DNA from: a virus
DNA length: 20,013 nt
Strand: one strand, 5' to 3'
Virus record (IMG/VR): IMGVR_UViG_3300031963_008590
Span: 1 to 20,013 of that record
A model generated the notes under the pieces. It did not search any database, had not been told where the DNA came from, and worked only from the letters and a program-made list of their open reading frames with translations. The position numbers and the translations under genes were made by a program. The stretch's first letter is position 1. Every line of letters begins with the position of its first letter. Below, one piece after another: positions 10,255 through 19,673 of this stretch.

Positions 10255-11232
10255 TTACATTTTAACTGCTTGTTTAATTGCCATCATGAAGTCACTCTTT
10301 TGTTTCTCAACACCTGCTTTTGGTTTTTCTTTAACACCAGGATTAGGATCCTTAAAAGGATTTTGTCTTTTTCTTTCTTTAGTTCCTGGTTTTGTTTTGG
10401 TTCTTTCCTTTTCTTTGGTGTCAGCTTTTGGTTTTTCTTTAACACCAGGATTAGGATCCTTAAAAGGATTTTGTCTTTTTCTTTCTTTAGTTCCTGGTTT
10501 TGTTTTAGTTCTTTCCTTTTCTTTTGTATCCTCCTCTAAAGATTTTCCCATTGAGTATAATTTTCCGATTGGTGTTTTCATTCCTTTTTGTTCTATACCT
10601 GATTCTTTAGAAAACATAGACATTTTTTTTGGATTTTTCAAAATCATACTTTCCAAATTATCAACTTTTTCCATTACGGTTTGAATGATTTCTTTTTTTG
10701 ACATTGTGGGCTCAATGTGTTTTTCAATCATTTCAAAAATCTTATCTTCTAAATATTTTTGATACGCCTCATCTGTTCTATTTTTCTTGTATTTTACAGT
10801 TTTTTCAGGGTGTATTTTTTCAGGCCTATTTTTGTAATCCATTTTTTTTGTGGATTTAGCAAACTCATCTCTCATTTTACACCATTTTTTTTCTTCCTTT
10901 GTTTTACCCGCACCACATTTTGCAAAAAACAATTTTTGTTGTGCTTTAGATGCAAATCTTTCAGAAAGTTCCGTTTCTTTCATTGGTGTCGCTGTAGTCT
11001 TTCCTCCAGTAGTATCTATTTCAACACCGTTAATCATAGTTTTAGAACCAGGTTTTACCAAATATTTTGTTGTTGTTATTGTTTGTGGTGTTGTATTTTG
11101 AGGGACTTGTGCTTGTTCCTTCATAACAAACTTATTAGCTAACAACGCTATTTGATTTTTATTCATTTTTGATATGGTATTGAAATGAATACCATTCTCC
11201 AAAAGAATATCAATATCTCTTTTAGTTTTCAT
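10255..11232 (-). CDS. Basic repeat-containing protein, 325 aa, unrecognised
   Basis: I do not recognise a family. The N-terminal 40 residues are helical. A block SKAQQKLFFAKCGAGKTKEEKKWCKMRDEFAKS (written here in parts: SKAQQKLFFAKC, then KEEKKWCKMRDEFAKS) near residues 93-125 has two Cys and resembles short basic modules seen in phage structural proteins. A helical region runs to about 230. Two identical 36-residue units rich in Lys, Arg, Thr and Pro follow, and the C-terminus is FMMAIKQAVKM. The protein is strongly basic, in contrast with its acidic neighbours, so binding to DNA or to the acidic core proteins is possible. Its start overlaps the end of the upstream 135-aa gene by 11 nt, indicating coupling. 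Confidence 0.8.
   Translation of the reverse strand: MKTKRDIDILLENGIHFNTISKMNKNQIALLANKFVMKEQAQVPQNTTPQTITTTKYLVKPGSKTMINGVEIDTTGGKTTATPMKETELSERFASKAQQKLFFAKCGAGKTKEEKKWCKMRDEFAKSTKKMDYKNRPEKIHPEKTVKYKKNRTDEAYQKYLEDKIFEMIEKHIEPTMSKKEIIQTVMEKVDNLESMILKNPKKMSMFSKESGIEQKGMKTPIGKLYSMGKSLEEDTKEKERTKTKPGTKERKRQNPFKDPNPGVKEKPKADTKEKERTKTKPGTKERKRQNPFKDPNPGVKEKPKAGVEKQKSDFMMAIKQAVKM
10316..10531 (-). repeat. Two 108-bp in-frame tandem repeats
   Basis: Two adjacent 108-bp units, 10316-10423 and 10424-10531, differ at only about four bases by eye. Each encodes the same 36 residues (DTKEKERTKTKPG ... VKEKPKA). The differences within codons I compared (GAC/GAT, ACC/ACA, ACC/ACT) are synonymous, which points to a recent duplication with the protein sequence conserved. 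Confidence 0.92.
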
Positions 11233-14004: not shown

Positions 14005-14250
14005 TTAGTCCAATTTCTTATACTTAAAGGTTCTTGATATGCTTTTGTTGAAGAATGAACCTTGGGATTTTGCGGTTCTGAATTGTGTATAAATTTGGTG
14101 AGGAACATCTTCGTATTCATACTTAATACCATTCTTAAATTCCGTTATTAATTTTTTGGTTTCCGTATCGTATTCCGTTCTTACTAAATTAGAGGAATCT
14201 ATTTCATTTATTATTTTTGTCCCTAAAATTTGTTCTTTTGTTATTGCCAT
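14005..14250 (-). CDS. KTSC-domain protein, 81 aa
   Basis: The protein consists of one KTSC domain. The diagnostic order is present: SSNLVRTEYDTETKKLITEF (residues 18-37), NGIKYEYEDVPHQIYTQF, and AKSQGSFFNKSISRTFKYKKL at the end (residues 60-80, given in two overlapping readings). KTSC domains are small beta-rich modules found in many phages and bacteria and in some lysyl-tRNA synthetases; the molecular function is not established. The start is placed at 14250 (MAITKEQILG) and not at the in-frame ATG at 14310, because a terminator and the promoter box lie between the two. It is followed by the nucleotidyltransferase gene after 26 nt. Confidence 0.88.
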   Translation of the reverse strand: MAITKEQILGTKIINEIDSSNLVRTEYDTETKKLITEFKNGIKYEYEDVPHQIYTQFRTAKSQGSFFNKSISRTFKYKKLD

Positions 14251-14265
14251 AATTTTTCTTATAAA

Positions 14266-14273
14266 GATAAATA
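14266..14273 (-). promoter_or_regulatory. TATTTATC box before the KTSC gene
   Basis: Seven of eight match on the coding strand, 15 nt before the ATG at 14250 and directly downstream of a terminator. Confidence 0.45.
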
Positions 14274-14277
14274 CAGG

Positions 14278-14307
14278 TAAAAAAAAATCCACCGTTTCCG
14301 ATGGATT
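14278..14307 (-). terminator. Intrinsic terminator after the UVR gene
   Basis: On the minus strand a 9-bp stem AATCCATCG / CGGTGGATT with one G-U pair closes a GAAA tetraloop and is followed by nine T. It separates the UVR gene from the KTSC gene. Confidence 0.85.
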
Positions 14308-14314
14308 CATTTTA

Positions 14315-14680
14315 TTACTTCAAGGAGTTGATTTTATCTCTTAACTCAATTGCCTTTTCGAAATCTTGTTTTTTGATACATTCGTCAAGTTCTGTTTTGA
14401 GCTTACTTATTTTCTCTTTGTTTTTTTCCAAAGTTTTTATTTTATCTCGTAACTCCACTGCTTCTTCAAATTTCTGTTCTTCAACCGCCATGTCAAGTCT
14501 TTGTTTGAGTAATGAAATCTCTTCAGATTCATTTAATTTCTCTTTTTTATTTGTTACATAAGTAAAAGAAATCATACCATCTTCAGATTTATAAGTTTTC
14601 TTTTCCCATCCGTCATTTAAGAATGTGTCTTCCATTCTAAACAAGTCATTGATAATTTTGTTAAAGTGACTGTTAAACAT
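14315..14680 (-). CDS. Small protein with two UVR motifs, putative Clp adaptor
   Basis: The protein is 121 aa. Residues 1-45 form a small N-terminal segment with WEKKTYKSEDGMISFTYV. Two UVR motifs follow: LLKQRLDMAVEEQKFEEAVELR (residues 58-79, cited in parts: LLKQRLDMAVEEQKFEE, AVELRDK) and LKTELDECIKKQDFEKAIEL (94-113). UVR motifs are helical hairpins that mediate protein contacts in UvrB, UvrC, ClpC and the ClpC regulator McsA. The motif here also occurs in the ClpC-like protein encoded divergently 160 bp away. McsA zinc-finger cysteines are absent, so it is not a full McsA. The start at 14680 is preferred over an upstream ATG at 14773, which would fuse a hydrophobic leader spanning the divergent promoter region. 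The adaptor role is inferred. Confidence 0.8.
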   Translation of the reverse strand: MFNSHFNKIINDLFRMEDTFLNDGWEKKTYKSEDGMISFTYVTNKKEKLNESEEISLLKQRLDMAVEEQKFEEAVELRDKIKTLEKNKEKISKLKTELDECIKKQDFEKAIELRDKINSLK

Positions 14681-14747: not shown

Positions 14748-14776
14748 TGACAAAATGTCAGTATAACTGACAAAAT
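14748..14776. promoter_or_regulatory. Candidate operator between UVR and clpC genes
   Basis: TGACAAAATGTCA is an inverted repeat with 5-bp arms, and a direct copy TGACAAAAT begins 20 bp after its start, about two helical turns. It lies in the 159-bp divergent intergenic region. It could bind a dimeric regulator of both genes. I see no convincing TAnnTTTG promoter for either gene here. Confidence 0.35.
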
Positions 14777-14839: not shown

Positions 14840-16906
14840 ATGGCAATAGAGTTTATTGATGACGGAGATAAGGGTAAAAGTAAATCAAGTAACAGTGGAA
14901 CACCAGTACTTGATAATTTTAGTAAAGATTTAATTAAACTTGCCGAAGAGGGTAAATTAGATCCTGTAATCGGTAGAAAAAAAGAAATTATTAGAATTGC
15001 ACAAGTTTTATCAAGAAGAAAGAAAAACAACCCAATTATTATTGGAGAACCTGGTGCGGGTAAAACCGCAATTGTTGAGGGTTTAGCTATGTTGATTCAC
15101 GCGGGTGAGTGTCCAAAGAATTTGTCAGAAAAGAGAATTATTTCTTTAGATATAAACTCAATTGTTGCAGGGACGAAATACCGAGGACAATTTGAAGAAA
15201 GAATGAAGGTGATTATTGAGGAATTACAGTCGAGTCCGAACATTATAATTTTTATCGATGAAATTCACACTATGGTTGGTGCGGGAAATAGTTCAGGTTC
15301 TTTGGATGCATCTAACATCTTCAAACCAGCTCTATCAAGAGGTGAAATACAATGTATTGGAGCAACAACTCTTGATGAGTATAGAAAACATTTTGAGAAA
15401 GATGGTGCATTAGAAAGAAGGTTTCAAAAAATAATTATCGACCCATCCACAAAAGAGGAGACTTTTGAAATTCTCAAATTGAGTAAGGATAAATATGAGG
15501 AACATCACAAAGTTAATTACAACGATGAGTCGTTGAGGTTGTGTGTTGAGTTAGCAGATAGATATATCACAGATAGAGAGTTTCCAGACAAAGCATTCGA
15601 CATTTTGGATGAGGTTGGTTCAAGAATGCAAATTGACATTAAATTACCTGAATACATCGAGGATTTGAAACAAGAAGCCGCAGACATCAAGAAAGAAAAA
15701 GTTGAGGTTATTAAAAAACAAAAGTATGAGTTAGCAGCAGAGCTTCGAGATAGAGAAAAAAATGTTTTAAAAAAATTAGAAGATGAAAAGATTAAATTCG
15801 AGGAGGAGTTAAGGATAAGTAAGAGAGGTATTCCTGAAGAACTTATTTATGAGGTTGTTTCAAACATGACAAAAATACCTGTAAGTAAAATCAATATTGA
15901 TGAAAAAAATTCATTGGTTAATTTAGAGGATTCATTAAATAATGTAGTGATTGGACAAGAAGAAGCTGTTAAGAAAATATCTAAATCAATAAGAAGAAAT
16001 AGAGTTGGTATAAAAGATCCAAATAAACCAATAGGTTCATTTATTTTCTTGGGTTCAACTGGTGTTGGTAAGACTTTCTTGGCAAAAAAATTAGCAAAAG
16101 AAATATTTGGAAGTGAGGACAGTCTAATAAGAGTGGATATGTCAGAATACCAAGAAAAACATACTATATCAAGATTGATTGGTTCTCCTCCTGGATATGT
16201 TGGACACGAAGAGGGTGGACAATTAACTGAACAAGTAAAAAACAAACCTTATTCCGTAATTCTTTTTGATGAAATAGAAAAAGCGAACAAAGACATCTTC
16301 TCTACATTACTTCAAATGTTAGATGATGGACATATGACAGATGGATTAGGTAGAAAAATCAACTTCAAAAATTGTTTAATTATTATGACATCAAATATTG
16401 GTGTTAGAAAATTACAGGATTTTGGTACTGGTGTTGGATTCAAAACATCAAACAACAGTGATGCAATACAAGAAGAATATAAAAGAGATGTTCTGAAAAA
16501 AGAGTTGAGTAAATTTTTTGCACCTGAATTTTTGAACAGAATAGATGACGTTGTAATTTTCAATTCCCTTAAAAAGAATCATATTGATGTAATAGTTAAA
16601 TTGGAAATTGATAAATTAGTTACAAGATTAGAAGGAATGAAATATAGTATCGGTTATGAAACATCAGTTATTGATTTAATATCTGAAGTGGGTTTTGATG
16701 AACAATATGGTGCACGACCCATCAAGCGGGCAATCCAAGATAAAATTGAAGATTTAATTTCAGAAAAAATACTACTCGAAGAAATACACGAAGGTAAAGA
16801 CTATATGTTATTTGTAAAAATAGATGGTGAGGATAAAGTTATTGAAATTGAAGAAAGGGTAAAACCTGAACCAAAGAAAAGAGGTAGAAAGAAAAAGGGG
16901 GAATAA
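14840..16906 (+). CDS. clpC: ClpC-like double AAA+ unfoldase without the N-domain
   Basis: Hexameric Clp unfoldases pull substrates into the ClpP protease chamber. This 688-aa protein has two complete AAA+ modules. D1 has Walker A GEPGAGKT (69-76), Walker B IFIDE (Asp140-Glu141), pore loop GTKYRGQ and Arg in LERRF. D2 has Walker A GSTGVGKT (405-412), Walker B ILFDE (Asp477-Glu478), pore loop GYVG (452-455) and FLNRID. Between them is a short middle domain with a UVR motif (KKQKYELAAELRDREK). GTGVGFKT at 530-536 carries the VGF tripeptide that docks ClpC on ClpP. Cellular ClpC is about 810-860 aa; here the 150-residue N-domain is replaced by about 20 residues and the protein begins almost at TPVLDNF. 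A basic tail KKRGRKKKGE ends it. It is the longest plus-strand gene. Confidence 0.93.
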   Translation: MAIEFIDDGDKGKSKSSNSGTPVLDNFSKDLIKLAEEGKLDPVIGRKKEIIRIAQVLSRRKKNNPIIIGEPGAGKTAIVEGLAMLIHAGECPKNLSEKRIISLDINSIVAGTKYRGQFEERMKVIIEELQSSPNIIIFIDEIHTMVGAGNSSGSLDASNIFKPALSRGEIQCIGATTLDEYRKHFEKDGALERRFQKIIIDPSTKEETFEILKLSKDKYEEHHKVNYNDESLRLCVELADRYITDREFPDKAFDILDEVGSRMQIDIKLPEYIEDLKQEAADIKKEKVEVIKKQKYELAAELRDREKNVLKKLEDEKIKFEEELRISKRGIPEELIYEVVSNMTKIPVSKINIDEKNSLVNLEDSLNNVVIGQEEAVKKISKSIRRNRVGIKDPNKPIGSFIFLGSTGVGKTFLAKKLAKEIFGSEDSLIRVDMSEYQEKHTISRLIGSPPGYVGHEEGGQLTEQVKNKPYSVILFDEIEKANKDIFSTLLQMLDDGHMTDGLGRKINFKNCLIIMTSNIGVRKLQDFGTGVGFKTSNNSDAIQEEYKRDVLKKELSKFFAPEFLNRIDDVVIFNSLKKNHIDVIVKLEIDKLVTRLEGMKYSIGYETSVIDLISEVGFDEQYGARPIKRAIQDKIEDLISEKILLEEIHEGKDYMLFVKIDGEDKVIEIEERVKPEPKKRGRKKKGE

Positions 16907-16925
16907 AACCCCCCCCCTTTTTTAA
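16892..16925. terminator. Bidirectional terminator between clpC and the peptidase gene
   Basis: AAAAAGGGGG pairs with CCCCC and TTTTT across a short loop that contains the clpC stop codon, with T-rich or A-rich flanks. It can end both the plus-strand clpC transcript and the convergent peptidase transcript. Confidence 0.75.
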
Positions 16926-17707
16926 TGTCTCTCGTAACCTAACTCTTCTATCATCATCTTACCTACTTTGATTCCATTGTAAGTATCGTCAACAACCACG
17001 TATTCGTTTCTTGTATGATAATTATAATAACCGATTGAGATGTTAAAACAAGATATATTATAATTTTTGTGAAGAGGGTATATATCGGTATAAGGGTGTC
17101 TATGATATTTGGTATCATTTGGGAAGTGTTCTGTAATTAATCTCCCACCGACCTCAAAAAATTTACTACCTCTATCAAACATAGGAACACCCATTAAAAA
17201 TTCTGAAATCATATTATTTTCAGGTGCGTCAAACTGAATTGCATAACCAACGTTCTCAAAAAAGTGGGGGTCTGAGTTAAACGAACCTTTACATCCAGTT
17301 TCTTCTGCAACAAAAAATGCGGCTTTTAAATTTGGTAATTCTTTAAGTAATTCTAAACAGGCGAATACACCACATTTATCATCACCACCAATTCCTGTCG
17401 GTTCTCCATTATCATTATACGCTTTAAGTGATAATTTTACATTACCTTGCGCATCAGATAACATTTCTTCTCTTACGTTGATTGTATCAATAGTATGAAC
17501 CGTATCTGTGTGTGCCACAACACAAGGAAAGAACTCTACATCCTCATCAGTTTCTTTGGTGGCGTAAATGTTATATAACTCATCCACATAATAGGGGATG
17601 TTTTCTTTCTCCAACCAAGTGGTAATAAAGTCAATCATCAAATCCTCTTGGTATGTCTTCGTGGGAACGGACAAAACCTTCTTTAACAACTCAAAATCTC
17701 TTTCCAT
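16922..17707 (-). CDS. Compact M20/M28/M42-type zinc metallopeptidase
   Basis: A 261-aa co-catalytic zinc peptidase. Metal-ligand and catalytic positions can be read in order: VAHTDTVH (His66, Asp68), GIGGDDKCG (Asp109/110, bridging ligand), VAEETGCKGS (Glu135 catalytic base, Glu136 ligand), QFDAP (Asp160) and YYNYHTRNEYV (His231). PepT and similar M20 enzymes are about 370-410 aa with an inserted lid/dimerisation domain, which is missing here, so the protein is essentially the catalytic domain and nearer in size to small M28/M42 forms. It has no signal peptide and should act in the cytoplasm as an aminopeptidase or di/tripeptidase. It lies 22 nt after the 353-aa gene, in the same operon, and converges on clpC. 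The substrate is unknown. Confidence 0.85.
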   Translation of the reverse strand: MERDFELLKKVLSVPTKTYQEDLMIDFITTWLEKENIPYYVDELYNIYATKETDEDVEFFPCVVAHTDTVHTIDTINVREEMLSDAQGNVKLSLKAYNDNGEPTGIGGDDKCGVFACLELLKELPNLKAAFFVAEETGCKGSFNSDPHFFENVGYAIQFDAPENNMISEFLMGVPMFDRGSKFFEVGGRLITEHFPNDTKYHRHPYTDIYPLHKNYNISCFNISIGYYNYHTRNEYVVVDDTYNGIKVGKMMIEELGYERH

Positions 17708-19334: not shown

Positions 19335-19673
19335 TTATTTGAATTTATAAGTTTTATACATTCCTAAGTCATCTATAATTTTACCTATATCAACACCTGT
19401 TTTTGGGTTAACGGGATAACTTTTGTCTATTTTTGATTTTCCATTTATTCTTACTGACAATCTATATTTATTGTTTTGATGGTCATATGCAATAGTAGCA
19501 CCATTCATATCATTTCCTTTAGCAACAATTGAAAGTGTTTTATTAAGTTTAAATCCGTAAGAACTCAATTTTTCCGCTGCGTGAGCCAACCCAGAGTGTG
19601 TTTTCTGTTCCATTATTACTCTTTTAACGATTCTTGATAAATCGGACTCTGTTAATCTAACTACTCTTCCCAT
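19335..19673 (-). CDS. Small 112-aa protein with a candidate capsid-targeting N-terminus
   Basis: I do not recognise the body of the protein. Its first 22 residues, RLTESDLSRIVKRVIMEQ after MGRV, form a short amphipathic helix ending in Ile-Met-Glu-Gln, which fits the T4 gp21 cleavage pattern Leu/Ile-x-Glu. The remainder (residues 24-112) is a compact alpha/beta domain with GFKLNKTLSIVAKGNDMNGA and YRLSVRINGKSKIDKSYP, ending in a basic tail. I recall short LTESDL.RIV leaders on various proteins of large marine phages, which would suit a sorting signal for packaging into the prohead; the function of the body is unknown. The start at 19673 follows an exact TATTTATA box by 13 nt. Confidence 0.82.
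   Translation of the reverse strand: MGRVVRLTESDLSRIVKRVIMEQKTHSGLAHAAEKLSSYGFKLNKTLSIVAKGNDMNGATIAYDHQNNKYRLSVRINGKSKIDKSYPVNPKTGVDIGKIIDDLGMYKTYKFK

Follow-up and report, generated by a model that had tools for sequence, protein, structure and literature searches.

What use could a phage make of a ClpC unfoldase that has kept its motor and its ClpP-docking loop but not its N-terminal domain? This question is raised by the virus record IMGVR_UViG_3300031963_008590, of which we analysed a stretch of 20,013 nucleotides (hereafter the window). It contains a minus-strand T4-like head gene cluster, including the genes for prohead protease, portal and large terminase, and embedded in this cluster is a plus-strand ORF (14840-16906) that starts with ATG and encodes a ClpC-type AAA+ unfoldase of 688 amino acids without an N-domain.

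A ClpC core in a head gene cluster

Pfam searches with this ORF retrieved AAA, AAA_lid_9, AAA_2 and ClpB_D2-small, and Clp_N was not among them. The initial annotation had described two AAA+ modules with intact Walker, pore-loop and Arg-finger residues, and all of these could be read directly in the sequence (all on the plus strand): the Walker A motifs GEPGAGKT in D1 (residues 69-76; 15044-15067) and GSTGVGKT in D2 (405-412; 16052-16075), the Walker B DE pairs at 140/141 and 477/478, the pore loops KYRG in D1 (113-116; 15176-15187) and GYVG in D2 (452-455; 16193-16204), and the Arg fingers R193/R194 in D1 and R567 in D2 (16538-16540). The UVR-bearing middle domain (M-domain) that it had also noticed extends over about residues 270-335 (15647-15844), again in conserved columns, and the tip residues Y296...R303 D304 (15725-15751) are equivalent to F436/R443/D444 of Staphylococcus aureus ClpC (PMC5699869). 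The docking loop for ClpP is of the Bacteroidota type, FGTGVGF (528-534; 16421-16441), with GVGF exactly at residues 531-534 (16430-16441). Residues 1-20 form a short N-terminal tail (14840-14899), acidic and then K/S-rich, which resembles the end of the linker between the N-domain and D1 in Bacteroidota ClpC. In an alignment with relatives, the Walker, pore-loop, Arg-finger and M-domain columns were invariant or nearly so.

Several features place the protein in the ClpC family. Two AAA+ modules and a D2-small domain are present, a short M-domain with a UVR-type tip is inserted in D1 (the UVR model also matches inside the ClpC frames of relatives), and D2 carries the [VIL]GF ClpP-docking loop; the N-terminal Clp_N repeat domain is absent. 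In the phylogenetic tree the protein lies beside Bacteroidota ClpC and phage ClpC with an N-domain. The best solved relative was S. aureus ClpC, to which the alignment starts at residue 150, beyond the N-domain. The predicted structure was of moderate quality (pLDDT 74, pTM 0.51), with low confidence for the docking loop itself, and the top structural matches of this model were ClpC-ClpP structures, confirming the ClpC fold at the level of the model. Other Hsp100 identities were rejected: the score was 802 bits for ClpB and 701 bits for ClpA, compared with NCBIfam equivalog cut-offs of 1232 and 993, respectively; moreover, the protein has a ClpP loop, which ClpB lacks, and an M-domain, which ClpA lacks, and ClpL was dismissed because the docking loop is present and under purifying selection. 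D1, M-domain, D2, D2-small and ClpP loop are all common to the phage protein and bacterial ClpC (Bacteroidota sequences and the solved models of S. aureus and Bacillus subtilis), whereas Clp_N is found in the bacterial proteins and not in the phage one. Judged from its sequence, the ORF thus encodes a protein that is a ClpC in both ancestry and core but lacks one defining domain.

The host is likely a member of the Bacteroidota, as suggested by the descent of the gene, the type of its docking loop and a promoter element. TAnnTTTG is a Bacteroidota-type promoter element, and it occurred upstream of clpC in 20 of 80 loci, compared with 4.9 in shuffled sequences. ClpC without an N-domain is carried by a large group of uncultured phages, probably with Bacteroidota hosts. 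Moraphages are large aquatic phages with mostly predicted Bacteroidota hosts, among which a ClpA-type gene is widely shared (PMC12619734).

Around clpC, two neighbours are conserved. A gene for an M20/M42-like metallopeptidase (16922-17707, minus strand) has a homologue near clpC in 76 of the 80 related loci, with orientation and identity changing between loci; HTD, GGDD and EE motifs resembling a metal site were spotted by eye in the window protein. Where clpC ends, a terminator-like hairpin (16897-16917), readable on both strands, precedes this convergent gene. On the other side lies a gene for a KTSC-domain protein (14005-14310, minus strand), which is also found at sister loci with full-length ClpC. 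PADLOC matches were dismissed as generic AAA hits. Within the head cluster, the minus-strand protein at 10255-11232 has a segment of about 40 residues (KEKERTKTKPGTKERKRQNPFKDPNPGVKEKPKA) that occurs as two almost identical direct copies. Similar short amphipathic N-termini (RLTESDLSRIVKRVIMEQ; LLIEELVRIKEIMG; INRIREMIGVSLIVE), some with IxE-like sites, occur on many proteins, including that encoded at 19335-19673 and G001, G002 and G009 near a block of ClpP-flanking genes (L273, L276, L278); these are possibly capsid-targeting peptides cleaved by the prohead protease.

Loss of the N-domain within phages

A first scan of viral contigs yielded 599 relatives, and the N-domain was absent in all of the best 80 of these (67-91% identity). 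Just 5' of the ATG the reading frame is stopped, both in the window and in each of these 80 relatives, which implies that an N-domain was not simply overlooked upstream. A truncated or misread clpC was rejected on the same upstream stops and on the concordance of 80/80 relatives. By comparison, the best 80 bacterial relatives all have at least 136 residues ahead of D1; the identity between phage and Bacteroidota ClpC is about 58%. The absence of the N-domain in cis, as stated in the initial annotation, is therefore well founded, and we also looked for the domain in trans, the finding that had been named there as contrary to the proposal. Pfam detected no Clp_N elsewhere in the 20-kb record and none in related records, the latter search being weak by itself as it missed a B. 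subtilis control. A profile of the Bacteroidota N-domain, which does detect this domain in a phage with full-length ClpC, found no separate N-domain gene in 14 records with N-less ClpC. Based on both searches, supply of the domain in trans was rejected for the N-less records searched.

Phylogenetic comparison with host ClpC, another suggestion of the initial annotation, showed that the window clade (100%) adjoins Bacteroidota ClpC on a long stem of about 0.4-0.5 changes per site. When the ClpC of a huge phage served as the query of a second scan, both N-less and full-length phage genes were recovered, and the window clade groups with full-length phage ClpCs at 99%. At the loci of these full-length sisters, the KTSC gene lies upstream in most cases and a nucleotidyltransferase gene in many. 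Such shared upstream genes next to full-length ClpC imply that ClpC was already at this locus before the N-domain was lost. A single loss, with all N-less proteins in one clade, was rejected by the AU test (p-AU 1.3e-5). The N-domain thus disappeared within phages, on more than one occasion.

Additional N-less ClpC-like proteins were observed on long branches in the huge phages LR756508 (L093) and LR756504 (L095), the latter with a degenerate M-domain tip; these two absences may be independent losses. Two further candidates (L241 and L254) were discarded, as their contigs merely start inside the gene. An N-terminal extension is kept in the ClpA of Klebsiella phage Muenster and in huge phage LR756501. 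ClpC, ClpA or ClpB proteins with an N-domain also occur in several phage-labelled records, such as OR847363, MT837238 and CAKLQH020000043; the last has bacterial housekeeping neighbours, so that some phage deposits are likely to contain bacterial DNA. Many 'phage' records that matched at 40-56% probably represent bacterial DNA in unverified deposits, or bacterial records, and were not counted as phage.

The docking loop and the source of ClpP

The positions F528, G529, G531, [VIM]532, G533 and F534 are conserved in all 79 viral relatives that cover them. Among the 35 sequences of the window clade, the residues F528, G529, G531, G533 and F534 never change although their codons do, position 532 is V or M only, and the loop around the GxGF positions is otherwise variable. 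The GxGF codons are under purifying selection. The pattern FGxG[VIML]GF was found in 50 of 54 Bacteroidota ClpC sequences and in none from the other phyla sampled.

Some of these phages encode their own ClpP. The gene was present in 9 of the 33 first-set records, always on the clpC strand and 11.7-42.9 kb further downstream, and in 21 of the 31 large second-set records, with N-less as well as full-length ClpC. In an alignment of six phage ClpPs, the Ser and His motifs were retained, as was a candidate Asp. On the window side, none of the seven contigs that extend 42 kb or more downstream of clpC (L003, L004, L009, L010, L032, L050 and L053) contained ClpP, and neither Pfam nor a phage-ClpP profile detected it in the 304 kb record of L032. 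Three of these seven records have the ClpP-flanking genes of the sisters in unchanged order, with ClpP missing. This supports a true loss of ClpP in the window clade, although no record is proven complete and the gene could sit on unsequenced DNA.

Given this absence and the purifying selection on GxGF, host ClpP is the likely partner, and docking to it is our best inference for ClpC of the window clade. The proposal of the initial annotation that the unfoldase feeds host ClpP is consequently supported for this clade by the conserved loop and the missing ClpP, but not as a general property, since sister phages encode a ClpP of their own; reliance on the host enzyme appears to be a later state and not the design.

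These results bear on the possibility that the protein works without ClpP as an unfoldase or disaggregase similar to ClpL or ClpB, for example in virion assembly. The lack of ClpP in the window clade and the position of clpC beside head genes would fit, and roles in virion assembly have been proposed for phage ClpA and ClpX (Iyer et al. 2021, PMC7824862). However, the loop is invariant despite synonymous change, the ClpP-independent Hsp100s ClpB and ClpIb do not have it (PMC10149685), and sister phages do encode ClpP, which makes this explanation improbable. We consider it slightly less probable still that N-less phage ClpC enters mixed assemblies with the ClpC of the host, which it would thereby block or retune. 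In Escherichia coli, N-less ClpA produced from an internal start is reported to interfere in this way, and the identity of about 58% to Bacteroidota ClpC together with the intact ATPase sites would be compatible with mixed rings; on the other hand, the recurrent phage ClpP suggests a stand-alone protease, and the long phage stem suggests divergence from the host subunit.

The M-domain, the divergent UVR gene and the proposed function

The N-domain of ClpC is its main brake and also the port for adaptors. The phage protein is nevertheless probably not simply an enzyme freed from control, since its M-domain contacts are intact. S. aureus ClpC engineered without the N-domain (dN-ClpC) has increased ATPase activity and binds ClpP, but forms head-to-head rods through its M-domains and degrades nothing; it becomes active and toxic only with F436A, R443A or loss of the M-domain (PMC12583610, PMC5699869). 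Among the 80 viral relatives, all have the [YF]-R-D tip, which is under purifying selection. Considering this precedent and the conservation of Y296/R303/D304, the phage enzyme would be competent to dock ClpP but locked, probably until its M-domain is opened. The precedent is a Firmicute enzyme, and the Bacteroidota-type M-domain may behave differently.

The same evidence argues against an unlocked protease of broad specificity that turns over host proteins, their amino acids being recycled with the neighbouring M20/M42-like peptidase. The frequent presence of that peptidase gene near clpC is in favour, and M-domain-broken dN-ClpC does degrade GFP-ssrA freely and is toxic (PMC12583610). Yet the tip is intact, for which the precedent would predict locking, the peptidase gene is convergent and variable in orientation, and neighbours in phage gene clusters are often unrelated; we regard this explanation as about as improbable as action without ClpP.

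The initial annotation had further suggested escape from host adaptor control, and this part is doubtful; the redirection of proteolysis to phage-chosen substrates, which it derived from that, is at this stage a conjecture. MecA was found in none of 99 Bacteroidota genomes, the M-domain contacts are kept and dN-ClpC is inactive. Of 15 Bacteroidota genomes, 12 contained ClpS, and mycobacterial ClpS acts on ClpC1 via the M-domain without need of the N-domain (PMC6274998), which implies that escape is not assured even for host adaptors.

What could open such a lock? A candidate partner is encoded directly divergent from clpC, a UVR protein of 121 amino acids from a conserved ATG (14315-14680, minus strand; the ORF opens at 14773). 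It has two motifs, F71/R78/D79 and F107/R114/D115, that are invariant or nearly so in 21 homologues and match the three M-domain-tip positions. Its structure model was poor (pLDDT 64), and it had no match in the phage collection. This protein is the best candidate for opening the lock, and it is an attractive idea that it would do so by capping the M-domain tips. The gene is directly divergent from clpC in 36 of 80 loci; detected beside clpC at no more than roughly half of them, it would be no universal opener.

Between the two genes lies the palindrome TGACAAAATGTCA (14748-14760), a candidate operator, with the overlapping inverted repeat TGTCAGTATAACTGACA (14756-14772). Across 81 loci (1.44 Mb) there were 58 exact copies of TGACANNNTGTCA, all about 42-108 bases before clpC and often doubled, with copies about 31 bases apart; the window has one match compared with 0.04 expected. 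The palindrome was present at 35 of 37 loci with the UVR gene and at 12 of 43 without it, and this link keeps its direction when relatedness is controlled, but with a p of only about 0.06. Most other sites examined in large records fall within coding frames and look like chance. TGACANNNTGTCA is therefore a candidate for a dedicated operator of the UVR-clpC divergent promoter region.

Taken as a whole, the reading that we consider somewhat better than evenly probable is that of a Bacteroidota-derived phage ClpC whose N-domain was deleted in phages and which docks ClpP, is locked by its M-domain and is opened by a partner. Phages acquired the gene from a Bacteroidota bacterium and deleted the N-domain within their own lineage. 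Hexamers would dock ClpP through the FGxGVGF loop, that of the host in the window clade and that of the phage in its sisters, and would be unable to form the host-style resting state. Substrates would enter through the pore or the M-domain, while M-domain tips would join rings head to head and restrain proteolysis until a partner directed to the M-domain opens the lock; the likeliest such partners are the UVR protein encoded next door and a ClpS-like factor of the host. Turnover of host proteins, supply of amino acids and removal of chosen proteins are conceivable purposes. A bolder version, in which natural dN-ClpCs evolved repeatedly, form ClpP-capped, M-domain-locked assemblies that a tip-mimicking UVR protein of the phage opens, and in one clade have taken over host ClpP, is rather doubtful as a complete account.

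The engineered S. aureus dN-ClpC (Carroni 2017; Jenne 2025) has the same architecture, with the N-domain gone and the M-domain and ClpP loop retained, whereas the phage protein is natural, evolved and linked to a phage UVR gene. Head-to-head ring dimers via the M-domain, as envisaged here, are formed by ClpL (PMC12583610), which works without ClpP; in phage ClpC the ClpP loop is conserved. Clp components of large phages are already known, such as ClpA, ClpX, ClpP and ClpS (Iyer 2021, PMC7824862) and the moraphage 'ClpA' (PMC12619734), and we saw no mention of N-domain loss in these two reports; in the open-access literature we found no description of a natural, repeatedly evolved N-less ClpC.

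A natural N-less family with an M-domain lock and a ClpP loop would offer a direct test of ClpC regulation by the M-domain only, and of the substrates and activators on which an enzyme of this kind relies. If true, the reading of the M-domain and the UVR protein would represent a new N-domain-independent switch for a Clp protease. The finding is also a pointer to control of host proteolysis by phages in the Bacteroidota, a phylum in which ClpC adaptors are little known.
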